Positions 33,204 to 59,000 of a DNA stretch of 64,000 bases are shown here, piece after piece (positions within the stretch are counted from its first letter, which is position 1; each line of letters starts with the position of its first letter). The notes below the pieces were generated by a model. The model worked only from the letters and a program-made list of their open reading frames with translations, did not search any database and had not been told where the DNA came from. Position numbers and translations under genes: made by a program. Source of the DNA: Clytia hemisphaerica (lineage: Eukaryota; Cnidaria; Hydrozoa; Leptothecata; Clytiidae); NCBI GenBank assembly GCA_902728285.1, contig CACVBU010000542.1, positions 248,001-312,000 on the forward strand. The letters run 5' to 3'.

Positions 33204-33214
33204 CCCCCACTTGA

Positions 33215-37285: not shown

Positions 37286-37506
37286 CTTTTTGGGTGTATT
37301 CTTGACCACTGCCTGTTGTACGGGTTTAGAAAGATACGACCGACCCCTCTGAATTCCCACATCTCGCCATTTCTTTTGCTCAACTTCTTGTTTAGGATAG
37401 TGGTACACTTTACCATTTTCAGCTGTGATGCTTATCCTCACCACAGCATTACAGGTGCTTTCGACTTCTTCAGCCTAAATTATATTTTAACATGAATTTA
37501 TTTTAG

Positions 37507-38051
37507 CTGAGGCAAAAATTGATACCGAGTACAACGAAGGGAGAAAACTATGATAGGGAAAATAGTTTCCAAATCAACAAGCTCCGAGGACTCATTCGCA
37601 AAACAGCCTACCTTCTCCACCCATTTGAGGATCTGGATCACAAAAGTATTTCTGGCACTACGTTACATGAAGGACTTCGGTCATTTGAACTTTCTGCACA
37701 AGCTAATATGCTTAAGTACGTAAGACAACGACTCGCGGATGGAGAAAAGTGTAAGCTGGTACCTATCTACGTTACAGAAGAGGAATTTCAAGAAGCATCT
37801 AAAGTAGAAATCTTACAAAGGCTGAAATCAAGCTAAAGATATTTTAAATGATGGATCAGTTAGATACCGATGTTTCTAGTTTTTACGAAGAAATCTTTAA
37901 TAAAACTGTGAAAAATGGTATAAAGCAAAAACATATCGATTTATACACCGAACTGATCGAGTGTGTTGATGAGTACAAAGCTGAAATCGAATCTTTGGCA
38001 GTTGCAACATCAAATGACGGTGAAGAATTGCTTACTTGTGAAGAAGTATGA
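37507..38051 (+). CDS. Two small hypothetical open frames
   Basis: After an acceptor-like TTTATTTTAG, the frame to 37836 encodes about 110 residues with KLRGLIRKTAYLLHPFEDLD and EGLRSFELSAQANMLKYV. A second ATG frame at 37848-38051 encodes 67 residues, mostly helical and acidic (ELIECVDEYKAEIESLA). No family was recognised. They lie just outside the left end of the large element, and head to head with the PHD gene exon. Confidence 0.35.
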
Positions 38052-38220
38052 ATAACTTCAATAGAAAAGATTGACTACCTTTTTTAAGATCGTGTTTTTT
38101 CTCTTACAAAAAGTCACTTGTCTATCTCCATTGTCTGGTAAAAGAGAAGTTGACATCTTTCCCTTATGATGGGGCTTCTTTTCTGAGTAGAAAAAAATAG
38201 GGTCGGAAATTATTTTATTA

Positions 38221-38250
38221 ATAGTCAGGCAGCTGAGGTCACATAAAAAA
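38221..38250 (+). repeat. Left terminal inverted repeat of the large element
   Basis: Contains CAGGCAGCTGAGGTCACA followed by T and an A tract. It pairs with the inverted copy at 56001-56030. Confidence 0.75.
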
Positions 38251-38352
38251 GTGCAGTAGCTACAAAGTTTGCGAGCAAACTTTAAACAGTTGTTTTCAAT
38301 AGATACGACCTTTCTGAACACAGAATCATCAACCGGACAGTTTGAAAATAAT

Positions 38353-39530
38353 TACCGGACGCGTCCGAAAATATTTTCGTATTTGATGACGTCACAAGCA
38401 AAATGAAAATTTTTATGAAAAAAAGCATAGACATATTATATACCAATCGACGCGTTTTTTGACGTAGATTAAGAAAAAGGTTATTGACTATGTCTGAAAA
38501 TTTGATGATAAAAAGTTAAACGCTTCCGAAGTTTTGATGACGTCATATTTACACTTTCTTTAGTGTCGATTTTCTCGAGTTAGGTTGAGAAATCATATAT
38601 ATCCACTTAAAAGTCTTCAACAAACAAAACGCCAATTCAAAATATTCCACAATGTCAACTGTAAAAGCAAATACTTCATCTACCTACTAGAATGTCAAAT
38701 CTGCAAGATCCAATACGTCGGTAAAACTGAAACACCCTTCAACGTCCGTTTGAACAACCACAGAAGCAATGCACTTCATCCGAAAGAAGACACCATCCCA
38801 GCGTGCAAAAACTTCAACAAGGAAGGACATAATTTCAATAGAGATGCTAAATTTACGATCATTGAACAGCTAAGAAATATCGAAGGAAATGAAAGCCAGC
38901 TGAAAAACACCATTCTATCACGAGAGAACTTTTGGATCAACAAACTAAAAACCTTAAAACCCAAGGGTTTAAACCAAGAACTCAATTTGATAGCGCCTTA
39001 AGTCTGTGTTTACACGTCCATTTTTTCCAGATCACTTACAGACGGCTCATAAATATACGTCACAAAAAAGCGTTTATTTGACGTCAAAAAAATTTTTTTT
39101 TTTGTTAAAAAAACTGAATTTTTTTAGCTAGAAATATACCTTGAAAACGGCCCTGGCCGAAACATGTTGGAAATTTCTAGCATCTAATGGTATTTTTGTC
39201 TCGATCCTCCGTCCGATATACACTTAAAAGTCTTCTCTATCGATTTTTGAGAGCTTTCGAATGGCGGTCTTAGATTTCAATTTTGATAAGTTTGAATTTT
39301 AGATTTTTTTTTCGCCACGGACAGGTAAAATTGACGTTACGGACATAAAGGAATAGCGTTGTAACTTTTTATAGCAAAATTTTCAGATATGGTTACTGAC
39401 CATTTTCCTAATCTACGTTAAAAAACGCTTCGATTGGTATATAATATGTCTATGTTGGTTCTCAAAATTTTTTCAGTTAGCCTATGGGCACGCATGACGT
39501 CATCAGGTACTAAAATATTACCGGACACAC
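38353..39530. mobile_element. 1.2-kb inverted-repeat unit containing the GIY-YIG frame
   Basis: Arms of about 170-190 bp (38353-38540 and, inverted, 39530-39350) share TGACGTCATCA, ACATAGACATATTATATACC-like text, the following AATCGA(C/A)GCGTTTTTT, and ACGTAGATTA(A/G)GAAAA. Both arms start at a CCGGAC motif. The unit appears to sit inside the left end of the large element, splitting the CCGGAC motif from the GC repeats. Confidence 0.65.
38585..39001 (+). CDS. GIY-YIG endonuclease domain, Penelope type (fragment)
   Basis: The open frame encodes FHNVNCKSKYFIYLLECQIC, then KIQYVGKTETPFNVRLNNHR, with a later ESQLKN...RENFWINKLKTLKPKGLNQELN tail. The paired YLL/QYVGKT is the GIY-YIG core, with the Arg of RLNNH and the Glu region behind it. 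The Cys pair before it and the GLN tail are usual for the endonuclease of Penelope-like retroelements. There is no ATG at the frame start and no reverse transcriptase upstream, so this is either a truncated Penelope copy or a nuclease captured on its own. Confidence 0.75.
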   Translation: MRNHIYPLKSLQQTKRQFKIFHNVNCKSKYFIYLLECQICKIQYVGKTETPFNVRLNNHRSNALHPKEDTIPACKNFNKEGHNFNRDAKFTIIEQLRNIEGNESQLKNTILSRENFWINKLKTLKPKGLNQELNLIAP

Positions 39531-39552
39531 TTAGGCACAGATAGTCCAATAT

Positions 39553-39950
39553 TTCCCGCAGAGCCCTGCGGATTGACTTAAAATATGATATAGCAACTTT
39601 TCGAATCTTTAGTTATCAAAACCTTGAATCCCGCCGCCGCCTGCGGGTTTCCAAATCTCACTGCGGGTCCCCTGCGGGTAATTTATAAATCTTTATATCG
39701 AAACCTCAAATCCCGCCGCCGCCTGCGGGTTTCCAAATTTCACTGCAGGTTCCCTGCGGATAATTTATAAATCTTTAGTTATCGAAACCTCGAATCCCGC
39801 CGCCTGCGGGTTTCCAAATCTCACTGCGGGTTCCCTGCGGGTAATTTATAAATCTTTAGTTATCGAAACCTCGAATCCCGCCGCCGCCTGCGGGTTTCCA
39901 AATTTCACTGCGGATTCCCTGCGGGTAATTTATAAATCTTTAATTATCGA
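39553..39950. repeat. Left GC-rich subterminal repeats
   Basis: Four units of 82-84 bp, each with CCCGCCGCCGCCTGCGGGTT then CTGCGGGTTCCCTGCGGGTA, joined by TTATAAATCTTTAGTTATCG-type linkers. The cores can form hairpins. They are the inverse of the right-end repeats. Confidence 0.85.
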
Positions 39951-40426
39951 AATATCAGAAATTAATGAATTTCAGTAAACTATTTGGACACTCAAATCTT
40001 TGATGCGTTTGTATTTTGACTATTCAAAGTCTCTAATGCATAATCAAACTTCCAGAACAAAAATATAATACTTCCGAAAATATAAATGAAATTAAAGTAC
40101 TGTAACAGTTGTTTAATTTTTTTCATGAAATTCCTTAAAATATAAATAAAATAACATTCTGTGATAATATCTACAATCACGTATTAACAATACAGTAACC
40201 GGCTTTCAGTAAACTATCTTCATATTTATATAACTTCTATATGTAATTATAATGAACTTTATAACCTGAAATACCTCTAATTATTACGAAATTCAATATG
40301 ATTAATGTTATATACTACCCGTCGAAATAAAGGTAGTGAAAATTTCTGTTCCGAAACACACACACATAAAGTAAACTTATGTGTAAACTGTAGAACACGG
40401 TTATATTTTTTTCTACTGACAAAATA
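39951..40426. other. AT-rich leader of the helicase gene
   Basis: Between the GC repeats and the first ATG. No gene visible; presumably promoter and 5' UTR of the helicase gene. Confidence 0.4.
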
Positions 40427-43400
40427 ATGGCAAATCCAGCTCGACAACTGAACGACCAGACAATCGCCCGTTCTCTAGAATGTAATATCCTTCCATTGGT
40501 GAGTAACAATTAATTTATGAGTAGCTTTATTTTTTTTATTTTTCGTTTCGTAAATTCCTAATCTTATCCATGGTTCTCAAAACTATATCCTAAAACATAC
40601 TCTCTCCATTTTAGATAAAAAAGACGGATACTGTTACTGCATGTCGTGTGATGCTGACGGATGATAACAGGCTTCTGGTTACTGATATAAGACATAGGTT
40701 GGACGATGCATTGGCAAATATGGAAATCAAATTTTTCATTTCTTGTGTTTCCGGGACGGAGTCGAATGCAAAGAAACCAGTCGAAGAACAGCCAGTCAAA
40801 CCTAATTTCCGAGCATCTATCTCATATTTCATTGTCCATGGAAGTAAACTTAATCTGAACAAAATTAAGCAGCAATTCCATAACACCTCCAAAATTAACT
40901 TTGAGATCAAACCTTTGAGATCAAACAGTAAACACAAAGACACCGAGAAGAAAAGTGCAGAAGAAATGACCCTATCTGTCCACTTGAAACAGATCGTGAA
41001 GGTTTAAAATCTTTATTTCATTTCGCTTTTGTTTGGGTTTTAACAATTTTTCTCTCTTTTAGTGCTGAATAAGACCCTTAAAAATGTTACGTACTTTTAG
41101 CCGAAAAAATTTAGGAAATTTCAAGTAGAAGTAATGACTAGTTACAAAAAGTCCAACATTTTTTGTAGCGCATATTTCATTTATTTTATAATTCTATTTG
41201 ATCAGGACCATAACCAAAAGTGCATCAAAGACCTGATCTTCCAAAGTATGTTGCATTGCTTTAAGACGGCCAACCCTTTGATGAAGGAAGAAGATGCTTT
41301 AGAGTTATGTCAAAACAATATAATGAAACCTTGCCGTCTCTACTGTGGGGATGGAAACATAATGAGAAGTTTTACGAACGCCAGCAGAAATTTGTTGACA
41401 GATGGACTGGTACATGTTAATGATACGTCAGACGAAATCTCACCTTCAGTGTCTGAATCAAAAACAACAATTTCTAAAGTGATTGACAAGATTGCATCGA
41501 CCATGATGGAACTCAATCATCGGCTTTTTCATGGCAATATTTATCAATTGCACAAAAAAGGTTTGGAATACTTTTCGAGTTGTTGATTGATACCACTGAT
41601 TCACATTGCATTAAATGTTTCAAAGGGATAAGTCTATTCTTTATTTGTCAATCTTTATTTATTAAAGAATCTTTTCTTTTTGAGATTTAAATTAAAAATT
41701 TGATATTTTTCAATCAAATTTATGCAACTCAAAATTTGGGTTTGATTTTCTTTCAGCTCGATTCACCTTTACGCTGTTCCTTGATGTCAATGCTTATCTT
41801 TCGAAACTACAACTAAACCCTGCTTTGCGCGAATCTATCATGATCCATGAAACTAAACTTAAACAAACAATGTCCAACGAACATACAGTGGTATGTATTT
41901 TGACTTACTTACTTTTAAGAAAATTTTATTTTTTTTCCTTTTCAAAGAAGACCATTTGAAGACCAGTAGCCCAAGACGTAGACCGTCGTTTTTATGAGAC
42001 TTTTGTACTGAAAAGACCGTTGGCCCGTCGATACTAGGGAAAGTCGCTTTAATTTTATTGACACTTTGAGACTTTAAATAAATTTCTATCATTTTGAAAG
42101 AAGACCATTTGAAGACCATTAGCCCAAGACGTAGACCGTCGTTTTTATGAGACTTTTGTACTGAAAAGACCGTTGGCCCGTCGATACTAGGGGAAGTCGC
42201 TTGGATTTTATATTGACACTTTGAGACTTTAAAGAGAAATTTCTATCATTTTGAAAGAAGACCATTTGAAGACCAGTAGCCCAAGACGTAGACCGTCGTT
42301 TTTATGAGACTTTTGTACTGAAAAGACCGTTGGCCCGTCAATACTAGGGGAAGTCACTTTAATTTTATTGACACTTTGAGACTTTAAATAAATTTCTATC
42401 ATTTTGAAAGAAGACCATTTGAAGACCATTAGCCCAAGACGTAGACCGTCGTTTTTATGAGACTTTTGTACTGAAAAGACCGTTGGCCCGTCGATACTAG
42501 GGGAAGTCGCTTGAATTTTATATTGACACTTTGAGACTTTAAAGAGAAATTTCTATCATTTTGAAAGAAGACCATTTGAAGACCAGTAGCCCAAGACGTA
42601 GACCGTCGTTTTTATGAGACTTTTGTACTGAAAAGACCGTTGGCCCGTCGATACTAGGGGAAGTCGCTTTGACTTGTTGAACTTTTGAGACTTTAAATAA
42701 ATTTCTATCATTTTGAAAGAAGACCATTTGAAGACCAGTAGCCCAAGACGTAGACCGTCGTTTTTATGAGACTTTTGTACTGAAAAGACCGTTGGCCCGT
42801 CGATACTAGGGGAAGTTGCTTTAATTTTATTGAGACTTTGAGACTTTAAAGAGAAATTTCTATCATTTTGAAAGAAGACCATTTGAAGACCAGTAGCCCA
42901 AGACGTAGACCGTCGTTTTTATGAGACTTTTGTACTGAAAAGACCGTTGGCCCGTCAATACTAGGGGAAGTCACTTTAATTTTATTGACACTTTGAGACT
43001 TTAAAGAGAAATTTCTATCATTTTGAAAGAAGACCATTTGAAGACCAGTAGCCCAAGACGTAGACCGTCGTTTTTATGAGACTTTTGTACTGAGAAGACC
43101 GTTGGCCCGTCGATTCTATGAAAAATTGCTTTTACTCATTAAACTTTTGAGATTTTTAGGTTTTAGACTGACACTTTATTCACTTTTGTAAAGCTTTACG
43201 TCCCTTTCTTTAAGCAATTGTACTGTGTGAATCGTTAGACTGTTGATTTTTAAAATTTTATATAAGTTTTTGAATGTTTATTTCTTTTTCTTTAGCATTT
43301 TCCGAACATCAAAATTGATTACGACTACATCGAGGTTCGAAACAACGTTTATCTTAAGCTGTCAAGTCGAGCGTATGTGGAATGTCCCTTTACAGGAGAA

Positions 43401-45479
43401 GATTTCGGAAAAATAACTCCGAGAAGTTTCCAAGATTTCGACGCACATCGAACAAATTGTCATGGTGGGTATCTGGCGTCTGCAATGGAACGATGGTGCC
43501 CTACACTTGAATCACAGGCGAAGCTTGCCCATAAGATCTACCTTTGTTTATTAACCTATCAGGTGCCTTACAAAACCAAAAGGCTTGTTTTAACAGGTGA
43601 CATTGATTGTGGTAAAACCTCGGTGGTCAATTTGTTCTTTGGGTTGATTCCAAGATCCAAAATTGCCATTATCACCAAAGAGGGTGTCTTTGGTTTGCAG
43701 ATGGTCCGCCCAGACACAGAGCTGCTATTCATTGACGAATGGAGCAAAGAGATGGCATCAGCAGACATGGTGAAGATGTTGTTTCAAGGTGGTTCATTTC
43801 CTCAATCCATAAAATATGGCAGCCCTCTTATGCAAGAAATGAACGCAGGAGTGTTTGTGACCTGCAATCACATCCCTAAATTCCCTCGAAAACAACGAAA
43901 ATCTGTCAAACGGCGAATCTCTAAAGTGAAATGTCGCAAACTTGAAGAAGAAATCCCTGAGGCTCCATCCTGGATAATGGAGAACGCGATGCATTGTTTG
44001 ACCTACTTGATCAATCTGATCAACAACAACTTGAATGTGATTGAGCCCGCTGAGTTGACCTACACGCTTCCAACGGACGTCAAATGTGAGAAAACCGTCC
44101 CAAAGGATGACGTCGACGAAGAATCTCTTGAGCGAATTAAGAACTGTGTCGTTGATCCAGATGAGTCCGTCCCTTTGGCCGATCAAACGAATGACGAGTT
44201 GGAAGTGTTTCGTGTGGTTGGAGAAGAAGACATGGTATTGGAAGATGGTAAGCATAGATTTCATTCATTTTTCGTCGGAAAAATAACCAGTAGAGTTGCA
44301 GTATCTATGCAATGACATGTGATACGTAGATTGCAAGAAATGATCCTATAAAATATTCTTTTAACTCTAGAACCGAGCGAAACTCACGACGAAGGAATTT
44401 CTATTTTAACATCTCCTGATCATTCAGTGTCTAAAGGTATGCCTTCTTTTAAAATTTGTTTTGGAATTATGTCAAGTTTTCAAATATAGTTTGGACCAAA
44501 ATCTTCGAAGATACTTCAAATGTAATTGGTTATGTATGTCTCAGAAATACTTCTTTTTTCATTTAGACGAGCTTGATGTCGAGAAACTTATTGGTTATGT
44601 ATCATCAACAACAGACTTTGAATCAGATATTGAGCCCCCACGAAAACGGGCACGTGGAAACACAATCAGAAGCCCTGTACAAATGCCAAGTACATACACA
44701 GTCGCGAAGACTGTGTTGTATTCAATCGTTGAGAGAGTTGTCGAAATTGAAAAAAATGGTGAGAGTTTTCTCTATTTATGTTCCATTTTCTCAGCAATCT
44801 TAATTCTTTATTGTGCCTTGAAGACACAGATTAGACTTTGCAATAAGGAAATTCAGCTTGCTTTTAGCTTATTCTACTTGTTTATTTCAAAATAAAACGA
44901 AAACTTATCAATTTCTTTTTTAGGAGACGTCCAGCCATCAGAAATGATGTCGACGTCAAAGTCAATGGATAGTCAATGCTCTAAGCTACACGGTAAGTTC
45001 ATGTCATTTTTCTATTCTGAATATAGTGAGCGTCATATAAACGAGTTAAAGCAAAGCATAAGCACTTGTGGTATGGAAAATTGACATAAGGTATTTTCCC
45101 TATTTCAGCCAGCGAGAGTCCAGTCAAGGAGAAGACTTCAATTAAATATCCACAGCGTTTCCAGCTTGATCTCGTCAATGGAGCCCAGTATTGGCAACTG
45201 GTACGTGCCTATCTTGAATACAACCTTGGGTTTAGAACGTTGAACGACGCCGTGGCTTTTTCGTTGTTTCAAACCTATGACAAATTTCAAGCCTCGATGA
45301 ACAGCCCGAGACCACCAACGACGGCTGATCCAAAGATCGACGCCTCTTTGATTGTAGTTAACAAACTACGTCCAAATTTTGATCTACCTGGATTCTTGAA
45401 AAAGTATCCGTCATGCGTCGAAACCATCAAACAAATACGCAAGAAAATTGGCGTGAAATTCAATGCTTCTATTTTGTAA
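40427..45479 (+). CDS. Superfamily 3 helicase-like protein, nine exons
   Basis: Exons 40427-40498, 40615-41001, 41206-41560, 41757-41890, 43296-44247, 44371-44436, 44567-44758, 44924-44992, 45109-45479. Every junction is GT-AG and all phases agree, giving 865 codons without a stop. Introns after exons 5-8 are phase 1. The helicase core is in exon 5: Walker A GDIDCGKTS (K423), Walker B LLFIDEW (D463-E464) and motif C FVTCNHIP (N507), with the compact SF3 spacing. A Cys/His set (ECPF...HRTNCHGG) precedes it. After it come a basic stretch (PRKQRKSVKRRI), an acidic linker and a nuclear-signal-like PPRKRARG. SF3 helicases drive replication in small DNA viruses and some plasmids; the N-terminal 300 residues match nothing I know. 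Donors after exons 2 and 3 (GTTTAA, GTTTGG) are weak. Confidence 0.8.
41895..43125. repeat. Satellite array 1 in intron 4
   Basis: Eight units of about 155 bp, each with GAAAGAAGACCATTTGAAGA, GCCCAAGACGTAGACCGTCG and AAGACCGTTGGCCCGTC. Two alternating subtypes differ in CAGTAGCCC versus CATTAGCCC. Minus-strand open frames here are translations of the repeat. Confidence 0.9.
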
Positions 45480-45589
45480 ATTTTTTCATATATATTTTTC
45501 ACTAACTGTCTTCACTGGAGTAGCTCTTACAAGAATCAAATCTGTGCCTTTTTTACTGATGATTTTTTTATGAAATTTGGATAAGTATT

Positions 45590-47695
45590 GGTGATTTCAA
45601 CGGTCTACTGGTCTACTTGGTACAAAACGCTTAACAATTTATTGGTCTTCTACATGGTCTAATGGTCCTTAGGGTGGCCTTCATTTGAGTTCTTTTTATC
45701 TTTAAAATTTTGATATACAAATTTTATCACATATTTTTCTTCTTGACAATTTCAAACATATCTCAAGAATATCAGACTTTGAAAATTCATCATATCCTTT
45801 TCAACTCTAAAATCTGACGGTCTGACGGTCTACTCTATAGAAACTCTCATAAAATCAACGGTCTTCTATATGGTCTAACGGTCTACAGTATGGTCTTCAC
45901 TTTCGAATGAAATTAATTAAAAGATTCTGAGTAGAGAGTTTGGATGTTTCGAAAAGTTTTTCATTTTCTCTTAGCCCTATGATCTCAAATCGGACGGTCT
46001 GACGGTCTACTCTATAGAAACTCTCATAAAATCAACGGTCTTCTATATGGTCTAACGGTCTAGAGTATGGTCTTCACTTTCGAATGAAAATGATTTAAAA
46101 GATTCTGAGCAGAGACTTTGGATGTTTCGAAAAGTTTTTCATTTTCTCTTAGCCCTATGATCTCAAATCGGACGGTCTGACGGTCTACTCTATAGAAACT
46201 CTCATAAAATCAACGGTCTTCTATATGGTTTAACGGTCTACAGTATGGTCTTCACTTTCGAATGAAATTAATTAAAAGATTCTGAGTAGAGACTTTGGAT
46301 GTTTCGAAAAGTTTTTCATTTTCTCTTAGCCCTATGATCTCAAATCGGACGGTCTGACGGTCTACTCTATAGAAACTCTCATAAAATCAACGGTCTTCTA
46401 TATGGTCTAACGGTCTACAGTATGGTCTTCACTTTCGAATGAAATTAATTAAAAGATTCTGAGTAGAGAGTTTGGATGTTTCGAAAATTTTTTCATTTTC
46501 TCTTAGCCCTATGATCTCAAATCGGACGGTCTGACGGTCTACTCTATAGAAACTCTCATAAAATCAACGGTCTTCTATATGGTCTAACGGTCTACAGTAT
46601 GGTCTTCACTTTCGAATGAAATTAATTAAAAGATTCTGAGCAGAGACTTTGGATGTTTCGAAAAGTTTTTCATTTTCTCTTAGCCCTATGATCTCAAATC
46701 GGACGGTCTGACGGTCTACTCTATAGAAACTCTCATAAAATCAACGGTCTTCTATATGGTCTAACGGTCTAGAGTATGGTCTTCACTTTCGAATGAAAAT
46801 GATTTAAAAAATTCTGAGCAGAGACTTTGGATGTTTCGAAAAGTTTTTCATTTTCTCTTAGCCCTATGATCTCAAATCGGACGGTCTGACGGTCTACTCT
46901 ATAGAAACTCTCATAAAATCAACGGTCTTCTATATGGTCTAACGGTCTACAGTATGGTCTTCACTTTCGAATGAAATTAATTAAAAGATTCTGAGTAGAG
47001 ACTTTGGATGTTTCGAAAAGTTTTTCATTTTCTCTTAGCCCTATGATCTCAAATCGGACGGTCTGACGGTCTACTCTATAGAAACTCTCATAAAATCAAC
47101 GGTCTTCTATATGGTCTAACGGTCTAGAGTATGGTCTTCACTTTCGAATGAAAATGATTTAAAAATTCTGAGCAGAGACTTTGGATGTTTCGAAAAGTTT
47201 TTCATTTTCTCTTAGCCCTATGATCTCAAATCGGACGGTCGGACGGTCTACTCTATAGAAACTCTCATAAAATCAACGGTCTTCTATATGGTCTAACGGT
47301 CTACAGTATGGTCTTCACTTTCGAATGAAAATGATTTAAAAGATTCTGAGCAGAGACTTTGGATGTTTCGAAAAGTTTTTCATTTTCTCTTAGCCCTATG
47401 ATCTCAAATCGGACGGTCGGACGGTCTACTCTATAGAAACTCTCATAAAATCAACGGTCTTCTATATGGTCTAACGGTCTAGAGTATGGCCTTCACTTTC
47501 GAACAAAATTAATTTAAAAATTCTTAGCAGAGACTTTGGATGTTTCGAAAAGTTTTTCATTTTCTCTTAGCCCTATGATCTCAAATCGGACGGTCTGACG
47601 GTCTACTCTATAGAAACTCTCATAAAATCAACGGTCTTCTATATGGTCCAACGGTCTACAGTATGGTCTTCACTTTCAGGACACAATATTCTGAA
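45590..47695. repeat. Satellite array 2 downstream of exon 9
   Basis: About eleven units of about 177 bp, each with CGGACGGTCTGACGGTCTAC, CTCTCATAAAATCAACGGTC and ATGGTCTTCACTTTCGAATG. The first units are degenerate, the others nearly identical. The ACGGTCT words are the inverse of the GACCGT words of array 1. Confidence 0.9.
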
Positions 47696-47817
47696 ATTGA
47701 GACTTGGAAGTTTTGAAAAAATTATCCACTGCTTTGATTTTTAAGAATTTTAGCGTTTTACTTGGTATATAATGGATTTTTTGTAAATTCGGACCATAAC
47801 GTTTTGTCACAGTTTAG

Positions 47818-48254
47818 CAGGAGGACACTCTCCAGAATTATTGAAAACTTTCCTTTTGGTAGAGATGGCAGATTTGAAACGTCAAAAAGAAGAGGAAATG
47901 TTCGACAAAAATTGCACATGTTTTAGCCAGTACACTATGGAGAAGCTATACGGAGCGAAAAAAAAAGGTAATTTTGAATATTTGACGCATTCAGGGTCTA
48001 TTGATGCGATTTTGATATAGAAGTATTTCCCTATGTTTCTGTATCAAATTTCGACCAACATTTTACTAATATCTATGTTTTTTTTAATTTTAGAACCTGA
48101 GGTGATTGTCATTTCTTCGGACGATGAAACTGAAAGATATAGCGGCAAAGAAGAAACGTTCGTTAAAAGAAAGGTTTCCAAGAGAATAATCGAAGTGAAG
48201 ATAGAAATTGAAGATATTTTTTCAAAGAAAAAGAAAAAGAAAACTTTAAAATAA
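47818..48254 (+). CDS. Two phase-1 exons ending in a SUMO-interaction-like motif
   Basis: Exon 47818-47967 (acceptor TTTAG, donor GTAAT) encodes GHSPELLKTFLLVEMADLKR to LYGAKKK. Exon 48094-48254 (acceptor TTTTAG) encodes EPEVIVISSDDETE followed by a Lys-rich tail and TAA. VIVISSDDE matches a SUMO-interaction motif (hydrophobic core plus acidic run). Both acceptors need one carried base, exactly what exons 5-8 of the helicase gene leave. They may therefore be alternative 3' exons of that gene that skip exon 9, or the end of a separate gene whose start is hidden in array 2. Confidence 0.5.
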
Positions 48255-48441
48255 AACAAAAAGGATGTTTTCGTTGTCCCTGAACTCATTCTTATTCTTT
48301 AAGAAAATCCGTCTTCTTATGTCTTCTTCTCAATTTCAAAAAGATCCAAAATAAAAGTGAAAGGGCTTCAATTTTCTGTATGCTCTCATATATTTCCAAT
48401 AATATATTCTAAATAATAAACACAAGTTAAGTTCTCTTAAG

Positions 48442-50166
48442 TTAAGTCAATTTACAAGTCTGGGCCCTACGACATAATGTTGCCCCCTGTCTTGAGGAAT
48501 GAAATTTGAACTCAGGATCAGCCAAAATTTTTGACCATGCACAACCGTATTTTTGAATTCCTAGTTTTAAAAAGTTATCTTCGGCTGAAGAAAATGCAAC
48601 TTTTTTCTGGCGTTTTTGAGTCTTTTGCGCTATTGATCCTGACTGTTCAATATTGAAAATAGGGCTTGGGAACTTCGATATATCCAATGTTTCTGTAATT
48701 TTAGAGAGAGCATTAATTGATGGAGTCTCGTCCGTTAATTTCTCCATTACTTTTCTGCCTTTTGATGCAACATCTCTAGATTGAAGCTTTTGATAGTGGA
48801 CCCGCGCTACAAATGAAGTATGTTTTTGGTCCTGGGAAAGAACATGCTGTTCTTCGACTGTTAATTTCGCTGCGCTTTCCGTTTCAATGATCTGTCGGTA
48901 TCTAGTTGGATTGATGTACTTTCCAATAGCTTGAAAAACTAACCTTCCAAAGACGTCACTAAGACGTGAAAGTTGCGTTCCGTTTCTTGTAACTAGAAGA
49001 TAGTCACATGTCGGATTCATCCTTGGTCTAATACATTTGATGTATCCATTTACAATATCTAAGACTTGTTTTGTAAAAATTAAAGTGTCAAATCCGTATT
49101 TTTCCATAGTTTTGAAAACTGTTTGGTCGATCATTCCATTTTGGTCAACATTCTCTATCATTTCTACAGTCAGATATTGAAATGTCATAGGTCTAGTAGC
49201 TTTTACCATAAGGAACAGAACTGCAGTGAGAAACCCAGTACAAAATGACAGATCGTGTGACGATGGACGAAAGTCTTTAGTGGAGGTACTAAGTAAAATT
49301 TGAGTAAATCTTTCGGCATGATGAGGAATAACTGATTGCATATCTTCTAGGCTTGCCCAGCAATCTATCTTAGACAAATAATCGACACTAAGTAAAATGT
49401 TCCATTCACATCGCATTTTTCGAGCCAGCGTTTTTTTAACACGGTCAATATAAATCTCTGATACCACATATGTTTCGTTAAGTGCTGTGCTGTTCATTCT
49501 CCTAAAATCTAAAACATGTGACAACGAGTTCATATATCCTATTAAACCAGCATAACCAACATGCCAATCCTTTTTTAAGTATTCAATAAAGTCTGAGATA
49601 GAAGAAATTGAACCGACACAATAATCTACGATGGTTAGTGGTATATCCCACTCAGGGTAGCAATCTTGACAGCAAAATTTCAAGAATTTCAAAACTCTGC
49701 AACTAACTTGACTTGACTGTTTATAGCTTTTTGAGCCACCGACGGCACTACACAGCCAGGATTTAAAGGAAATGTCAAATGAACAGTCTCGATTAAAAGA
49801 TGGTATATCGGTAGTCCTGCTGCGCTTCGTTCTTGTTAGGGTTCTAGATATCACAACCTGTTTCGGTAAAACATCCTCTACATTTGGCTTTGCGTCAAAA
49901 AAATAAAACCACCCATGTCTCTGATAAACATGCTTCCTGCAACCTCGTTGTGTTTGGTACGATTCACTGTCACAACTTTTTACAGGACAATTAAATAACC
50001 CATCTTTATCTGGAACCAAACTCAAGCGTTTTGGCTTGGAAGCAGCTCCTACAGCATCTTTCCAAATTTTCTTTGATAACAGTTTCTTTGGCATTCCTTT
50101 TCCACGCACAATATACAAATAAAACCAATATCGACCGAATCCATCCGTTTGAAAAGAAAATTGCAT
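48442..50166 (-). CDS. Tyrosine recombinase with zinc finger and C-terminal Myb/SANT domain
   Basis: A 574-codon ATG frame without introns. Residues 60-84 form a C2H2-type finger (C60, C65, H79, H84). The catalytic domain shows ATRPMTF (Arg325), PTRYRQIIET (Arg422/Arg424), QKHTSF (His449) and VHYQKL (Tyr458). This is the Arg, HxxR-like, His, Tyr order of tyrosine recombinases, with nine residues between His and Tyr. Residues about 523-570 read KVAFSSAEDNFLKLGIQKYG, then WSKILADPEF, a Myb/SANT (telobox-like) DNA-binding domain. Recombinases of this family integrate Cryptons, DIRS and phages by strand exchange. The gene converges with the helicase gene, 187 bp from its last exon. All key residues are intact, so it may be active. 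Confidence 0.85.
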   Translation of the reverse strand: MQFSFQTDGFGRYWFYLYIVRGKGMPKKLLSKKIWKDAVGAASKPKRLSLVPDKDGLFNCPVKSCDSESYQTQRGCRKHVYQRHGWFYFFDAKPNVEDVLPKQVVISRTLTRTKRSRTTDIPSFNRDCSFDISFKSWLCSAVGGSKSYKQSSQVSCRVLKFLKFCCQDCYPEWDIPLTIVDYCVGSISSISDFIEYLKKDWHVGYAGLIGYMNSLSHVLDFRRMNSTALNETYVVSEIYIDRVKKTLARKMRCEWNILLSVDYLSKIDCWASLEDMQSVIPHHAERFTQILLSTSTKDFRPSSHDLSFCTGFLTAVLFLMVKATRPMTFQYLTVEMIENVDQNGMIDQTVFKTMEKYGFDTLIFTKQVLDIVNGYIKCIRPRMNPTCDYLLVTRNGTQLSRLSDVFGRLVFQAIGKYINPTRYRQIIETESAAKLTVEEQHVLSQDQKHTSFVARVHYQKLQSRDVASKGRKVMEKLTDETPSINALSKITETLDISKFPSPIFNIEQSGSIAQKTQKRQKKVAFSSAEDNFLKLGIQKYGCAWSKILADPEFKFHSSRQGATLCRRAQTCKLT

Positions 50167-51343
50167 AAAGTTTCAAAGCGTAGCAAAAACACCCTGATTT
50201 GTATTCAAAACAAAGAAATTCCGGGGATAGTCAGTCAGAGTCAATCGCTTATTAATTTTGAATATGAATTAGCATAATTTAGCAAAATTTAAATTTGAAC
50301 CAATCTCTATCCAGTAAACGAGTCGGTTGGTTGTACCCCCGGGCTTTCTTTAGAAAGAAATTATAAGAACGAAAATGTTTTCTTAAAAAGGAGACCCCCT
50401 TGAATTTCGAAAATTCCAGCTTGAATTACTAGTTTCAGCTTTTTAAAACGGAGGTACTTGATGGGAAATTTCTTATAGATAAATGGGAACTACAAAGTCA
50501 ACTAAAACCCCCTAATTCTTTCAAGCAATCAAGCTTTTAATATGAGGCTATTAAAACATCCAGGGTGTAAAAGATAAAATGAAGTTTTTTAGAAGAACAT
50601 ATTTCAAAACAGTCTTAATTCGTCCCCTTTTCGGTCAGTAAAATGCTCACTCGACATAAACGGAGTAACGTTAGGTAAAATACTCTTATTCAAAGATTTT
50701 CTTATAAATGACAATAACTTTTAGAGGAACGAAAACGACCTCATTAGATGCTCTCAAAGGACCGTTTATTTTCTTTCGATTTCTAGTAAAAAGGAATCAT
50801 AGAGTCCTTAAATGAAACACAGAAAGGAACGTTTGTAACAATTTAATTGAATACCATAGCAAATATACTACAATCTCCTTTGAGACGCCTTGTACCTTTT
50901 AAAGTATTCCCATCCATAAAAATGGCAGATATACATTTTGGAAATTAAAAAAAACAGTTGATTTTGACTTGAACAAAAGGAACATAATTATTATGAAACG
51001 TATATAACTATATTTAAAAATGGAAGCTCTTTGATTATTACAGATAACACAAAAAAGTGCATGATAATGAAACTACCTATTTTCTTAAAACACACGCTTA
51101 TAATAAAATAAAGAAAAAACAAGTTGTATAAACAGTGAAATTTTGCAACGAATTAAATAATAATTGATTTATGCTTGGATTTTTCCAAACAAATTTTGTT
51201 ATGAGTGTCATCAATAAATTTAAAAAATAACAACCTTTTGCAGTAGCTCATTTTTCGAGTCATATACTTAAAACGATTAAGTTGACTGTTAGACTGTTCA
51301 GCTACTTCGGTGTTAAGTCCTCTCACGCACAAATCTGTCTAAA
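50167..51343. other. Non-coding region upstream of the recombinase
   Basis: AT-rich; no gene, repeat or clear promoter element was recognised. It must contain the recombinase promoter. Confidence 0.4.
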
Positions 51344-51600
51344 TGGATGATAAAGACAATCAACATGTGGAAGCAATTTTGGCTGAGTATGTTTCTCGAC
51401 ATGAAATATATCCACGATGAAATCTAGCGCCTCGTATTTTTTTGCAATTAGATCCCCTCGTTACTAACCGTTGTATGAAGGATGAATCCACACGAACGTC
51501 GTACACATTCCAGATAAATTTTGAGCTGTTTCTCCAAACGTGTCAAAAGATACAAGAATCTGAAGATAAAGACTCTGAGTGTACAGTTCATAGTGAATAA
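51344..51600 (+). pseudogene. Short broken frame
   Basis: ATG at 51344 begins MDDKDNQHVEAILAEYVSRH and hits a stop after 25 codons. The same frame continues (RIFLQLDPLVTN, INFELFLQTCQKIQESEDKD) to 51597. No family was recognised; it could be a decayed gene of the large element. Confidence 0.3.
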
Positions 51601-51849
51601 CGTATCACAGGGTCTGAATAAATAAAACATTCCTGCTGGCCTCGAATGAAAACGATCGACATTCCTCCTCTTTCTACAGCTAATCTTCATCGACAACTAC
51701 AATTGTCTAAAATTTTTAGCAAATTGTTTGGTGAACGGTCTCTGTCCAGTTGCGTTATTGTTTCACCGGTTTTTTCATTTTCATGTACATGACAGAACTT
51801 TGATTTGGTTTGGTGTTGGTTACCTCTCTGGGGATTTTGTATGCACAAC

Positions 51850-52468
51850 TCATATGAGTTCACCTTCCACGCAACCTAAAACACGCGGTTTGGGGTGCAT
51901 CACATATCGTCGATACAGTTTCGTTCCATCGATTACAATAAATTCTTTCTTTGCAGCCAGGCTTGTACTATTCCTCAGCCACTTTGAATCCACTTCCGAT
52001 TTGATTTCTTCATAGACCATTCCACACAGCGCTTCAACATCTAATTCCTTTGATACTTTCTTTCTCGGCCAATATAAAGTTATCTGGTATTCAATAATAC
52101 GATAAATATACCACGCTGTTTCCAACCTATCAGGATTAATCCTGTCCATTATATGTCCAGTTGTACGATTATATCAGCAGCTTGCTCAAATGACACTCCG
52201 CCGATGAGATCATATTGTCTGTCATTTAACAATTTTCTGGTGAGGCAATCCAAATTGAACAACAATACCTCAAGTTGCTGAAATCGAAAGTCTTTGACAA
52301 AGTTTTCTTATTTTCTGTAAAACCAGTAATGGGTAGTGGAGCATTTCGCACACTTTGAAGATACGAATGGGCTTTATGCTCTCCATCAGTAGAATACAAT
52401 TTTGACAGTGGCAATTTTGGTTGCAATTTCAGAAAAGTACCCACAACAATAATATGCTGTGGCAACAA
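51850..52468 (-). pseudogene. Two minus-strand hypothetical fragments
   Basis: 52468-52226 encodes LPQHIIVVGTFLKLQPKLPL to FDFSNLRYC. 52149-51850 encodes LDVEALCGMVYEEIKSEVDS and LAAKKEFIVIDGTKLYRRYV. Stops and frame changes separate them. They could be parts of one decayed gene transcribed away from the DUF3987-like gene; function unknown. Confidence 0.3.
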
Positions 52469-52820
52469 GAATAACGGTACCTTAATCGTCTTTGTGTCAA
52501 ATTAATTCAGCTTCGAATGTTTTTGTTCAAGTTTGCATATCATTTGAATTGTCATTCAAATTCTGTCGTCTGAACGGTGTTTCCCTCATCATGAATATCA
52601 ATTAGTAGTCCGTGGACAAGAAAAGGTTCTTCAGAAATCAACTTTTGCGATTGAGAATGATTTCCTTCGTCCTCGGTGTCTGACGGGATGCTTTATATAG
52701 GTCGCACAACAGGAGCAACATCTCGAACTTGACCTCATTTCAATTTTGCTCTTTTCTATTCGTGTATGTCGTTATTTGTGAATTAATGAAAATGAAGTCG
52801 TGTCGATGCGTTCCATTTTC

Positions 52821-53193
52821 TGACGTCAATTTTAACCATCTTTGAGAATGAAGTCATTGAGTGTAAATAAAGTGACGTCAGGGCTTTCTGAACGTTTACT
52901 TTTATACAATCGTGGTTTCATCTCCACAATCTAGTAAAAAACTTCGATCTGCGAACATCCTTTGTGTGCGATTTCAAAGTACTTGCCACTTCATTATCAG
53001 GTATGTAAGCTTGAATTTAATTAGAATCCATCGAATAAATATAAAACTTTAGGTCTTTATGCGTATTTTATATCATGAACTTGTTTATATGTTTTGGCGT
53101 CATTAAGATATTTTTTGAATGATATCACTTTTTTTCGATCACGAGTGGGCTCTTGTAAAGCTGTCTACCTAAAATTTCTCTTTTTTTTTCAGA
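52821..53193 (+). promoter_or_regulatory. Promoter and 5' leader of the DUF3987-like gene
   Basis: Two TGACGTCA palindromes (CRE/ATF-type sites) at 52821 and 52873 precede a TATA-like TTTATACA at 52911. A donor ATCAG-GTATGT at 53001 and an acceptor TTTTTCAG ending at 53192 frame an intron directly before the ATG at 53194. All elements are inferred by position and consensus. Confidence 0.5.
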
Positions 53194-54140
53194 ATGTCGA
53201 AATATCCACCCATCGATGATGCTGACTATAAAGAGGTTATAACTAATGCATGGAAAGTCAAATACGACACGAAAACTTGGTTTCCCAATCAAGTTGCTGA
53301 ATGGATAAATCATCATTCTACGATATTGGGCGTCCCTGAAACGTATCTATCTGTGCCACTTTTGGTGTCCGCTGGCTAGCTCCAACATGCGACGTAAATG
53401 CGGGAGACTTACAACTGAACCCACGATACTATACCGTTAGGTGCGGAAGATCAGCACCAATAAATCGTCGGAAATGAAAATCATCAAAGATCTATGGAAA
53501 TGGTGGAGAAAAAGCCGGAGATCTCATACCTTTGACAGCGGGACATTGAAGGTTTAATAATGCAATCTATGCGAATTAAATTAAAGTACCCTTGCATGTC
53601 CGACGAATTTGCTACATTTTTCGATGGATTGGACAAAGGACCTAGCAGCAGCGAGCGTTCAAGTACCTATCTTATACTCCGGAACCATTGGTCGAAAAAG
53701 ACGAAAACGAGGTAAGTAGAGCTTTTCGACCCTCGTCTATCGATTATGTCCTTCACGCAGCCTTATTATGCCGTCCAGTTTGCCAGAAACAATCTCTCTG
53801 ATGGTTTTTATCAGCGGTTCTTGATAGTGTGCCTGAAGAAGTATATATCAAACGTGCCGACAAAGAGAAAGCTCGAAGAAAGCAAGATTTGGTGGACATG
53901 AAAGGGGTTTTTGAGCAAAATATCAACAGTGGTGGACAATAACATCAAATTAGCATTGACTGAAGAGGCCGAATTATTTATGATGCATGTCACGATGCTA
54001 TTGTCGACTACCGTATGGAGGAGAAATTCGAGGAAGCGAAGTTGTCTATTAAAAGTAAGTCCCTTGGCTTATTACTACGCGTTTCTGGGGTCATTTCGTT
54101 ACTTCGCACTGCATTGCAACGACCAGTAATTCCGACTTTG
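53194..54140 (+). pseudogene. DUF3987-like (primase/helicase-type) fossil
   Basis: From ATG 53194: WFPNQVAEWINHHSTILGVP, then LSVPLLVSAG, the opening of DUF3987-type proteins. It continues in other frames with STNKSSEMKIIKDLW (P-loop position), MSDEFATFFDGLDKG (Walker B-like), DGFYQRFLI and, near 54050, SKSLGLLLRVSGVISLLRTA, in the order expected for that family. At least four frameshifts or stops occur. DUF3987 proteins occur with phage-type replication genes and in invertebrate mobile elements, so a second replication gene would fit the element. Confidence 0.5.
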
Positions 54141-54289
54141 GACGAGGCTGACACACATGGCTAACAAATTGTTTCTTACCTGTTGAATGCTTTTTTTCTC
54201 TTCTAAAGGGTCCGGCTGTTGAAAAACCCAAAAAGAACAATAGCGTCTTAAATTTAAGCCTCCTTTAACCGGAGCCTGAAAATTTGACC

Positions 54290-54559
54290 ATGGGATTATT
54301 TAGTCACGTATCAAAAGGTGCCAAAAGACTTTTATCCAATGAATCCATTCCACTCTCTGTGGTATCGAGAGATAAAATTTATCCTATCGTTAACAATGTC
54401 TCTGGCTCGCAAATTGCTAACAAATTTATCGGTGGCATGAGAAACTGCTTTGGGCACGTCGCCAGCACAAAAAGTTTTAAACGTCACAATCCGATGATAA
54501 TTCGTGTCCAAATAAAGAGGAGGCGACGAAAAAGGTATAAAATGCTGAATTTAATATGA
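54290..54559 (+). CDS. Small basic protein, 89 residues
   Basis: The ATG is in a strong Kozak context (ACCATGG). The N-terminus MGLFSHVSKGAKRLLSNE could form an amphipathic helix, and the C-terminus is very basic (VQIKRRRRKRYK). An amphipathic start with an Arg-rich tail recalls small DNA-binding or minor structural proteins, but there is no homology I can name and the length is near what chance allows. Confidence 0.35.
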   Translation: MGLFSHVSKGAKRLLSNESIPLSVVSRDKIYPIVNNVSGSQIANKFIGGMRNCFGHVASTKSFKRHNPMIIRVQIKRRRRKRYKMLNLI

Positions 54560-55144
54560 TAAACTTTATACTTTTTGTTGGTAGTTAATAGAAGTTTCTA
54601 CTTTTCGGCCGTGTTTCTTCAAATGGAGAAGATCTTTTATTCCCAAATTTGACTCTGATTAAGTGATGGTAAATTTAAAAACATGTTAGACTTGAAATTG
54701 ATAGTATAACTACTTTGAGTTTAAGTTAGGGTCAACGATTAATAATCGCGGTTTTTAGAACTTTCATTTCAAGTTTTAAATCGTTCATGACTCATTTATT
54801 TTGATATAAATTAGGTGTTATAATTAAATTAATGAAGTATGTTATTATATATATGTTAAGTTGAATATTAATTTATGTAATACAGACCTGTTTCAAAATC
54901 AAAAAATATACAAATCCCTAATAATTTTAATAAAATATTGATATCTATTTTACCTTTTATTTTTGATGCAATGCACAAGGTTTAGAAATTTCGGCCTTTA
55001 TAGTATATCATAACAAATTTATGCTTCTTAGAATGATGAATATTCTATAAGGGATAAACTTTAATTTACTTTTCATATTTGCGAATATCGAAATTTCGGC
55101 AATAGCATTAATACAGTACATTATAACTACATAAGTACAATAAT
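54560..55144. other. Very AT-rich non-coding stretch
   Basis: No gene or repeat was recognised before the GC-rich right-end array. Confidence 0.5.
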
Positions 55145-55870
55145 TATAAAGAAACTTAAATCCGAGAGGAATCGAGGGAACCCGCAGGAAAACCTAATAA
55201 ACCCGCAGGCGGCGGCGGGAGATCTGACAAGAGAAACATAAATCGAGGGGAATCGAGGGAACCCGCAGGAAAACCTAATAAACCCGCAGGCGGCGGCGGG
55301 AGATCTCTGACAAGAGAAACATAAATTCGAGGGGAATCGAGGGAACCCGCAGGAAAACCTAATAAACCCGCAGGCGGCGGTGGGAGATCTCTGACAAGAG
55401 AAACATAAATTCGAGGGGAATCGAGGGAACCCGCAGGAAAACCTAATAAACCCGCAGGCGACGGTGGGAGATCTCTGACAAGAGAAACTTATTAAATCCG
55501 AGGGGAAACGAGGGAACCCGCAGGAAAACCTAATAAACCCGCAGGCGGCGGCGGGAGATCTCTGACAAGAGAAACATAAATTCGAGGGGAATCGAGGGAG
55601 CACGCAGGAAAACCTAATAAACCCGCAGGCGGCGGCGGGAGATCTCTGACAAGAGAAACATAAATTCGAGGGGAATCGAGGGAACTCGCAGGAAAACCTA
55701 AATAAACCCCGCAGGCGTGGCGGGAGATCTCTGACAGAGAAAACATAAATTCGAGGGGAAACGAGGGAACCCGCAGGAAAACCTAATAAACCCGCAGGCG
55801 GTGGCGGGAGATCTCTGACAAGAGAAACATAAATTCGAGGGGAATCGAGGGAACCCGCAGGAAACAGCGG
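55145..55870. repeat. Right GC-rich subterminal repeats
   Basis: Eight to nine units of about 84 bp with GGGAACCCGCAGGAAAACCT and AAACCCGCAGGCGGCGGCGG. Inverted, they match the left array (CCCGCCGCCGCCTGCGGGTT, then CTGCGGGTTCCCT). The 268-codon minus-strand frame here is a translation of the repeat. Confidence 0.9.
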
Positions 55871-56000
55871 GGAATAAGCGAAAATCTGTGGTATACTCAC
55901 CGGACACGTCCGGTAAAGTAATTTCAACAACATGGTTTCTAGATATTTAGGTTGTATATTTTCAATTAAAAGTGGTTTGGGATTGTTCGCACCCCGTCCA

Positions 56001-56030
56001 ATTTTTTTGTGACCTCAGCTGCCTGTCTAT
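56001..56030 (-). repeat. Right terminal inverted repeat of the large element
   Basis: TTTTTTTGTGACCTCAGCTG followed by CCTGTCTAT; the inverse of the left end with two mismatches. Directly followed by the ambiguous base 56031. Confidence 0.75.
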
Positions 56031-56031
56031 N

Positions 56032-59000
56032 TCCCACGTCTCAGATGCAATTAAAGTATAAGGCCCTAGGAATAAAAACACAAAAAAGGCAGACTAAGGA
56101 GGCAAGATGAGAAGTTTTTGAAAGTGGTCGAAATACACTGATCTAGGTACCAAAGGATATGAGCAACAGAGGAAATAGAATAGAGACATAAGTGTGCAGT
56201 AATGGAAACAGTATATTTCGAAAAGTAAACAAGAATGCCGAAAATGTATAATAGAACTTGGGATGACATTGGGGATGCATCAAGATATATATATATATAA
56301 CTGAGAGCCTAACCCGTTTTGACGACGGGTGTCCTGTGTAACCCGTATTTATATATGACGGGGGTCTTACTTAGCCTGTTTTGATGACAGGTGTCGCCTA
56401 GCCCCGTTTTGATGACGGAGGTTGATAAGCCCCGTTTTGATGACGGAGACTTATACGCCCCGTATAAGACGGAGGCTAAAAAATAAACAGGGAGGTTGCC
56501 CTGGCGAACCTTAACACCGTTGGGACTACAGTGTGCGAACCTAATCCAGATCTAACTGGATCCTTGACCTTAGGGGATGAATCTAAGTAACTGACTACTG
56601 ACATGCAACGGTTACGGAGTAACCCTACACCCCAACGTCACCCAAATCCAAAGAATAACATTAAAAGGAGGGTAAAGAAATTAATCTGAGGAAATTCTAG
56701 ACACATAATGACATTAGGTAGGTTGCAAATAGTGATGTAAAAATTTTACCTTGGCCAAGTTAGAATTAAACTTAGAAATATCTTGGTCAGAGATTTGAGA
56801 TACCTAAGATAGCAATCCCTAGACTGTCTACCCATAATGTGTATCATTGAGTCAGACACACATGCGGAGAGGGCAGCGGAGGCTCCACCCATGCAAAAAC
56901 TTAGGGAATTTAAACTGTGTTCAAGAGGAAGGAGCTTGAGCAGGGTATGGACTTTCCTTCAAGATATAAGTTTGCCATCCATGAATTTCCATATATTATT
57001 GTGACAAGGAATCTCTACGAAGAAATGTGTCTTAGAAATTGTAGTCTGTAAATTTAAAAAAAAAAGGAATATATTTAAAAAGCACCAGCATTAATCAGCT
57101 AGGAAACTAAATACAATTATGTGGAAAATTGAAGAACTAAATTTGAGTTTTAAGAGAGCTTTAAAAGATCTGAATTTAAGCTGTTGTTTCGAGATCGGTA
57201 CAATGTGATTCAAGTCTCTTGCAGAGATGTGACATGAAACGGAAATAAGACATCCTAATTAAGATTTGGTTTGTAGTGAATGTATGCTGCAAACTAAACT
57301 TGGAGATTACGAACGGTTCAAAACATATCATCTGTTAGCCATTAACTTATAATATTTTCATAAATGACTTGAACTTGGTCCTTTGATTATTCAAAAGTAT
57401 CCATGCTTGAGAAATCTATTGAAATTCATTACTGTCCTTGTCTAGCCACTGACTCTATCAAGTTGAAACAACAATCATTGTTGAGCTACTCAGGAGCCAC
57501 AAGCATTTAATACAAATTCTGCATTTAGTCACAAAACATTTGGCTGCAGATTGGAGCATTGAACCTGCCAGTCAAACTTGTCTTCTTATCCCTTATTATA
57601 AAGTTTCCACCCATTGTCCCAAAAGGATAGACACTTCCGATAGTAGTCAACGAATATCGATCAATCAAATTTGACACAACACTATAAAATGATTAATTTC
57701 AAAACATTAGCAAAGAATTGATAAATGATCATGTTCAAAATAGTTTGACATTTAGTGAACTCAAAAATTGACAAAAATATAGTATTTCTTGAATAACTTG
57801 GGAAATATTTCAAATATAACGTTGAAATTTTGTATGATGATCGGTAACACAAAGAACATATCATTCTGATGAAAAAAAAAATAGTAAAATGAGTAAAATT
57901 TGTGGCTTCTGGTCCAAATATGTCCAAATATGTGTTTTGTCAGCCACTTCAAAGGGGGAAATGGTTTGATTAAAAATAACACTTGTATCGGTAACTAAAG
58001 GTATCATATTATCTCAAAACAGATAAAGGAGCACATTTTGAAACTGGTTGGTTTCAAAAAGCCACCAGTATTGTCAGCCACATAACGACTCATAGCTTAT
58101 CTTGAAATATCTTATAACCTAGTAAGCCACTTAATTTCGCTCCAAAACCATTGCAAAGGTTAATCATTCTACTTATCCTTGGTGAAAAATTAAACTGTTA
58201 GCCACCAAAAATACTCATTTTATTAACATAATTGTCAGCCACTTTGAAAATGTCACAAAACAGGCCTTTATTTTTGAACACAATCAAATTTATCCTGGAT
58301 GTCTGGCATTGTTGGTACTACCCTTGCTTTAAAAAGGTCAAATGTTGTTACCTCAAATGTAGGATATTAGTTAAACGTTTAGAATAATAAATTCAGGCCA
58401 TTGAAAATTTTTTAAATAAAAACCGACCAGTCCCCAGAACAATGGAAGAAATGATAGTTAGCGAACAGCCTCCTTTTTGACTTGCTGTCGTTAAATCAAT
58501 AATAAAACAAGGAGAGTTGCAGAAAATGTTTGGGTGATTTTGAAAACTGCAAAAAGTTTATGAAAACATCTCAAAAGTCAAAACACATGCAAAATGACAC
58601 ATCAATCCAGTCAAAAATCCACTATAACAAGCATTTAATTTGATCTTATTAAAGCAAAAGACGAAAAGGCTATAAAGACGAAAAGCAAAAACTGGATCAC
58701 TACCCTTATTCTTCAAGTCACAAGTAACAACACCAATTTGTCATTTCAACTTTGAGAAAGCAGATACAAATATTCAATTGTACCAGGCTTGTATACCACG
58801 TTCGTGTCAAAATCAAAACAATCATTAAATCTGACATCTTTCTCAAAGAACTTGTCCCATCATATCAAATCCCAAAACAACTTGACAATCGTTTCTTAGC
58901 TCATTGACCGGTTAATTTATAACAATTATGAATAAAAAATACATAACCCTAACACTGGATAACAGGACCCTATCCCCAACTCTCAAAAGGCTATAGAGCA

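Follow-up and report, generated by a model that had tools for sequence, protein, structure and literature searches.

An apparent 17.8-kb mirrored element of Clytia hemisphaerica comprises three nested mobile elements, the innermost of which pairs a tyrosine recombinase with an SF3 helicase

A 64,000-nucleotide stretch of the genome of the jellyfish Clytia hemisphaerica (contig CACVBU010000542.1, positions 248,001 to 312,000; hereafter, the window) contains what looks like a single 17.8-kb mobile element with mirrored ends, within which a tyrosine recombinase (YR) gene lies beside an SF3 helicase gene. Do the mirrored ends and the genes between them belong to one unit, and what kind of unit carries the two genes? 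We found that the apparent element is three mobile elements, each nested in the next: M (∼1.4 kb) holds O (∼5.7 kb), and O holds E (10.68 kb), which carries both genes. The combination of YR and SF3 helicase was therefore confirmed, whereas the 17.8-kb unit was rejected. For E, our data directly support a mobile unit with defined ends, an empty site, a conserved gene pairing, and tandem junctions. We conclude that E is probably a Crypton-like YR DNA transposon that encodes its own SF3 helicase for replication, and its family, which is recently active and joins a YR to a virus-type replication helicase, appears to be a kind of self-replicating animal transposon that has not been described.

E and its flanking repeats are placed in the window as follows.

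40331..51007, forward: element E, the mobile unit with YR and SF3 genes; borders common to copies on other contigs with differing flanks, and four of four empty sites
40327..40330, forward: ATAA, left 4-bp direct repeat; single copy in the empty site
51004..51007, forward: ATAA, right 4-bp direct repeat and last bases of E (...CGTATATAA); from end comparison and the empty site

Across the 417-Mb Clytia hemisphaerica assembly, the helicase exon of E had 23 DNA matches, and eight such loci besides the window were aligned with window positions 37000-57000. Six are long copies of E (C193, C735, C514, C279, C732, and C18) that match the window only between 40329 and 51012, with the left-side match of C514 beginning only at 41661; the other two (C853 and C677) hold fragments, and the eight loci together match nothing in the window outside about 40329-51019. 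The five left ends compared begin [A/C]GGTAGTGAAAATTTCTGTTCC (one flank being an unread N, and one lying off the contig), and the right ends read ...CGTATATAA before differing flanks, except for one that is cut by an N. Moreover, the repeat that surrounds E in the window ran uninterrupted through the E site in all four copies retrieved, and the three copies read at the join have CGTCGAAATAACTATATTT there, where the window reads CGTCGAAATAA/AGGTAG on the left and CGTATATAA/CTATATTT on the right. Since the empty site contains one ATAA and two surround E, insertion was accompanied by a 4-bp direct repeat. Terminal inverted repeats (TIRs) were not seen in E, the two ends of which, compared by eye, are unrelated. 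A candidate recombination-site dyad at the E junction, GGAACA...TGTTCC, is centered at -3.5 in four of five cases, but is suggestive only, as other centers give similar match counts. Because the other copies share E only and the surrounding repeat occurs without the insert, the YR and the helicase are not part of the inverted-ended unit. The original prediction had proposed independent copies, an empty site, and a co-conserved recombinase and helicase as its test, which upheld the gene pair and overturned the boundaries.

The YR gene of E is convergent with the helicase gene.

48442..50172, reverse: tyrosine recombinase, 576-aa open frame, with an N-terminal CCHH zinc finger, the catalytic R/K/R/H/Y set, and a C-terminal TRF-like Myb domain

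Its frame is uninterrupted in the window, in agreement with the intact recombinase that had been predicted. The R, K, R, H, and Y catalytic residues are kept in all 27 aligned recombinases of the family, as is a threonine at residue 423 (window:48445-50172:-) in place of the usual HxxR histidine, which gives TxxR. Fold matches to recombinases were weak, and none of the 27 family members matched DUF3504 or an integrase family in Pfam.

The helicase gene runs in the opposite direction.

40427..48254, forward: SF3 helicase (replication-initiator-like) gene of at least nine exons, from alignment of the Clytia gene models P0001 and P0005 with the window, P0130 and P0177 sequences, and tblastx to divergent copies
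40427-40499, 40615-40947, 41203-41562, 41753-41902, 43296-44253, 44352-44440, 44566-44757, 45114-45407, and 48094-48254, forward: its exons, with approximate borders
43296..44253, forward: SF3 helicase core exon, with GxxDxGK[TS], DEW, CN, and RR; Pfam E1 match only in relatives
48094..48254, forward: last helicase exon, EVIVISSDDE and a lysine-rich tail, common to P0005

The gene models, fold match, tblastx, and protein sequences together identify this as a genuine spliced gene, as had been predicted. The window exon aligns over 79% of its length, at 96% identity, with a Clytia hemisphaerica protein and matches the SF3 core fold; the residues that define SF3 helicases (Walker A, the DE of Walker B, the motif C asparagine, and the arginine) are kept in all 10 aligned relatives. 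By sequence, the exon matched no Pfam family, and the helicase found nothing in PDB beyond P-loop noise. E therefore shares with the SF3 initiators (parvovirus Rep/NS1, papillomavirus E1, and SaPI Rep) the core fold and, in its relatives, the E1 match, but differs in that the long models P0130, of 745 aa, and P0148, including their N-terminal region, had no Pfam match, and in that a YR transposon harbors the gene. We take EVIVISSDDE in the last exon to be a SUMO-interacting-motif-like stretch, and the lysine-rich tail is presumably similar to a nuclear localization signal.

We examined how regularly the two genes occur together from at least 85 YR matches (76 of 564 candidates scored) and at least 124 helicase matches (119 of 294 scored), which merged to 69 and 89 loci, respectively. 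A convergent helicase lies within 15 kb at 40 of the 69 YR loci, comprising 37 of the 41 with at least 55% identity and 3 of the 28 below it; among helicase loci with at least 50% identity, 29 of 39 are linked. Above 55%, four YR loci are unlinked, and one of these (C355) has its contig end 1.1 kb away on the helicase side; three of the 40 pairs, which are 13-15 kb apart, may be due to chance. In the 47-48% YR group, the only such locus retrieved on the helicase side, C768, has a convergent SF3 gene too divergent for the genome helicase search. This very divergent gene is at L029 2420-5842, and a frame downstream of it, also on that strand, has a SUMO-motif-like tail, VVDISSGE, at its end, which resembles EVIVISSDDE; upstream of the C768 YR, on the side opposite the helicase, are frames that by eye resemble a non-LTR (long terminal repeat) retrotransposon. 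Among proteins from other sources, three YR clusters and three helicase clusters have identical longest-contig sizes (27871, 13158, and 9917 bp), and jittered sizes never gave three such equalities (0/5000; 120 YR and 99 helicase entries compared), which suggests, but does not prove, linkage in other samples; three further equalities among short contigs (1084, 2615, and 2795) are probably chance. Another hydrozoan, Hydractinia, has a YR (P0052) with 54% identity. The YR and the SF3 helicase of E form one mobile unit, linked far beyond chance across the Clytia genome. Of the predicted large replicating element of an unnamed class, this part stood and the 17.8-kb extent did not; literature titles and abstract openings among the matches listed described no YR and SF3 transposon in animals, with bioRxiv, Repbase, and subscription papers outside this scope.

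Several copies of E are arranged in tandem, with runs of units at C143, C292, C385, C577, C232, and C594. At four inter-unit boundaries (C385, C292, C143, and C677), GTATATAA (in C292, GTATAAAA) is joined directly to CG[G/C]TAG with no host spacer; such head-to-tail junctions would be expected if a recombinase used circular or end-joined DNA as its substrate. Compared with the window over YR and helicase exon DNA, C193, C735, C514, and C279 are 99.5-99.9% identical, and C732 and C18 are 96.6-98.5% identical. The YR frame is open in C735 and C514 and has stops or frame breaks in C193 and C279. Further, at ten loci (C22, C254, C143, C292, C352, C577, C431, C57, C822, and C385), YRs 93-98% identical to that of the window stand beside helicases that are just 55-73% identical, and 57-73% at the first six of these loci, a mismatch that suggests module exchange between elements.

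Two introns of the helicase gene each contain a satellite array.

41939..43156, forward: intronic satellite array 1, 155-bp unit, ∼7.6 copies, with AGACC[AG]T copies
45806..47677, forward: intronic satellite array 2, 177-bp unit, ∼10.6 copies, with A[CT]GGTCT copies; homologous to array 1 in inverted orientation

The motif A[CT]GGTCT occurs 89 times in E, with 87 of these within the arrays, in opposite orientation, and only 10 times in the other 53 kb. Two inverted arrays of short motifs were present in five of the six loci examined, near-identical E copies not being counted separately, and the motifs differ among subfamilies: (i) C292 and C143 have corresponding arrays and share the core motif of the window E; (ii) the C768 arrays carry GGATAAG; and (iii) those of C38 carry GGGCTA/TAGCCC and lie side by side ahead of the SF3 core. 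In all five (the window E, C292, C143, C768, and C38), the paired arrays are inverted homologues (local scores of 57-100 versus shuffled maxima of 22-34), whereas the array units of the three subfamilies score just 8-30 against one another. The larger 3' array of C143 (175 bp, 18.5 copies) contains AGACC[AG]T twice and no AGACCGT. An earlier reading, independent convergence of the two arrays on a shared motif (0-3/2000 resamples per element, with the C143 test based on a 172-bp unit of 2.4 copies), was withdrawn because the two arrays proved to be inverted homologues. Outside E, a lone 131-bp inverted match (84-87%) to the 155-bp unit lies at 29100-29230, 11 kb beyond the element, and is possibly a relic or a source.

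These patterns make the arrays candidate binding sites, possibly of the iteron type. That they are instead passive satellites with no binding role is a serious minority possibility: intronic satellites can expand neutrally, motif enrichment per single unit is mostly not significant, and in the sixth locus, a second C677 copy, AGACCGT is present in the 5' array and absent from the arrays farther downstream. Neutral expansion is harder to reconcile with inverted arrays of multicopy motifs that recur at five of six loci, in three subfamilies with such low mutual unit scores.

For E, the circle, its replication by the SF3 protein, and the iteron role of the arrays are steps that we infer. The YR would cut E out and close it into a circle at the junction ...CGTATATAA/CGGTAG..., and would then reintegrate it at an ATAA-like core, while the SF3 protein (helicase, N-terminal region, and SUMO-motif-like tail) would load on the circle and recruit the host replisome. 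Either the initiator or the Myb domain of the YR would bind the motif arrays, which would act in the manner of iterons. Replication of the circle would raise the copy number and give tandem multimers, so that transposition could be replicative; M and O would be passive hosts of the E insertion. Integrative plasmids of bacteria or archaea combine an initiator, iterons, and a YR integrase, and E resembles them, by logic alone, in its integrase, putative replication initiator, and candidate repeated binding sites. With slightly less than even confidence, we propose that E is the type of a new class, namely a self-replicating YR transposon and in effect an animal integrative plasmid, in which the recombinase makes and integrates the circle, the SF3 initiator replicates it, and the inverted arrays, with motifs that change between subfamilies, serve as origin and partner-recognition site. 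An element with its own replicative helicase would offer a direct and testable answer to how eukaryotic YR DNA transposons multiply, in a laboratory jellyfish with recent insertions. The E family could also be a non-viral reservoir of papilloma/parvovirus-type helicases in animals and, if the new-class reading is true, a capsid-less counterpart connecting Cryptons with DNA-virus replication modules.

A simpler account is that E is a cut-and-paste Crypton-type transposon that captured an SF3 gene, which does not serve its replication. According to the Crypton paper (PMC3212892), Cryptons in general have 4- or 6-bp direct repeats at their termini; the animal Cryptons showed neither direct nor inverted repeats at their ends and encode a YR that lacks a C-terminal domain; and an excised circle is the proposed mobile form of eukaryotic YR DNA transposons. 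E resembles Cryptons (CryptonA in cnidarians and other animals), as described there, in being a YR DNA element without TIRs, in its short direct repeats, and in the proposed circle, and its ends and 4-bp repeats favor the simpler account, as do the 29 of 69 YR loci without a detected helicase. E differs from the animal Cryptons of that paper in having a 4-bp repeat, an SF3 helicase gene, a YR with a zinc finger and a Myb domain, paired arrays, and a length of 10.7 kb; neither "helicase" nor "Myb" occurs in the main text of that paper. As for the recombinases, the E family was unmatched by DUF3504 in Pfam and, although its R, K, R, H, and Y are conserved, reads TxxR at the HxxR position of the R-H-R-Y catalytic tetrad. 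A captured passenger is unlikely, since linkage to a convergent helicase persists as YR identity falls to 48%, and the catalytic residues of the helicase are kept in every aligned relative. We therefore retain the reading of E as a Crypton-like transposon with its own replication helicase.

The original prediction had also offered an integrated virus relative, and E might in this sense be a virus that integrated, or a relative of the polinton-like viruses that decayed, with loss of the capsid genes. SF3 helicases are typical of DNA viruses. According to PMC4642659, polinton-like viruses and virophages form a group of integrating elements in which both YR and SF3 helicase genes are found, a likeness to E; the group is defined by capsid genes and placed in algal or protist genomes and metagenomes, whereas E has no recognized capsid gene, has spliced genes, and forms multicopy tandem insertions in an animal host. 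Scans of six E open reading frames (ORFs) with Pfam and PHROGs recognized no major capsid, minor capsid, or packaging ATPase gene, although spliced or very divergent genes could escape, and the Pfam scan gave no match to a reverse transcriptase, which DIRS/Ngaro YR retrotransposons have next to the YR. Little room is left in the 10.7 kb, since the two genes, with their introns and arrays, fill 40427-50172 of 40331-51007. IMG/VR, which may omit records of the Clytia genome, yielded no relative in scans with the helicase profile, the YR, and the YR profile, and the many copies with open YR frames are unlike a decaying provirus. A viral origin is accordingly quite improbable, and E is better read as a transposon.

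The mirrored ends themselves belong to O and M, two older elements into which E was inserted.

39528..40330, forward: element O, left part, starting CACTTAGGCACAG; from copy comparison
51008..55898, forward: element O, right part, ending GTGGTATACTC; from copies C700, C928, C843, C250, C624, and C170, with the right end read in C700 and C843
39520..39527, forward: ACCGGACA, the 8-bp duplication that flanks O, left copy (window only)
55899..55906, forward: ACCGGACA, the 8-bp duplication that flanks O, right copy (window only)
39604..39952, forward: GC-rich 84-bp array of O, left; from repeat and copy comparison
55150..55864, reverse: right-hand GC-rich 84-bp array of O, in inverted orientation with respect to the left-hand one; from repeat comparison
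53716..53898, forward: piece of a broken DUF3987-like gene of O (Pfam E 0.0018, below the cut-off)
38221..39527, forward: element M, left part, with a 29-bp TIR at 38221-38249; from inverted-repeat comparison
55907..56030, forward: element M, right part, with a 29-bp TIR at 56002-56030; from inverted-repeat comparison
38564..39001, forward: ORF of M with a GIY-YIG domain (PF01541 in Pfam, at 29.6 bits versus a cut-off of 22.6)

O is a separate repeat family that is 91-94% identical at six other loci, plus smaller fragments, and none of these six has a YR or helicase within 50 kb among the matches listed. Its right end, ...GTGGTATACTC, is followed by three differing flanks (window, C700, and C843), and its left end, CACTTAGGCACAG, is preceded by differing flanks in four copies (window, C928, C170, and C250). 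The 8-bp repeat around O is known from the window, the only retrieved copy that spans both O ends. No transposase was recognized in the O ORFs scanned; the four pieces neighboring the DUF3987-like fragment had no match, and the frames at 53173-54264 were assigned by eye only. With O removed, M is 1431 bp long, and its arms, which carry a TTACCGGACGYGTCCG motif, pair imperfectly over about 320 bp, with the 29-bp TIRs outermost and the GIY-YIG frame between the arms.

The mirrored features that had been predicted do exist. The terminal inverted repeat is 29 nt long and 93% identical, and its 18-bp core occurs twice in the window and never in 100 shuffles, even with three mismatches. The internal motif ACCGGACGYGTCCG is exact at 38354 and 55901 (with up to three mismatches, 5 matches versus 1.6 expected), and the GC-rich arrays are indeed in opposite orientation. 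The GIY-YIG domain and the weak DUF3987-like match were likewise seen, but as members of M and O, respectively, rather than of the YR and SF3 element. A single 17.8-kb element carrying all of the genes retains virtually no probability, despite the presence of the inverted repeats, arrays, and motif, since other copies share only E, O occurs without E and ends at 39528 and 55898, and an 8-bp repeat marks O inside M. This case shows that nested insertions can imitate one large mirrored element.

Beyond the right end of M, single Ns stand at 56031 and 59868, and most of 56032-59867 is repeated at 59879-63781 with 93-97% identity. At 56031, the N probably marks a joint made in assembly, because the sequence adjoining it is largely repeated beyond the second N; the two stretches may be alternative haplotype contigs that scaffolding put one after the other. 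On the other side, at 32958-37286, the window contains a Copia LTR retrotransposon with 247-bp LTRs that are 97.6% identical and readable gag and pol frames.

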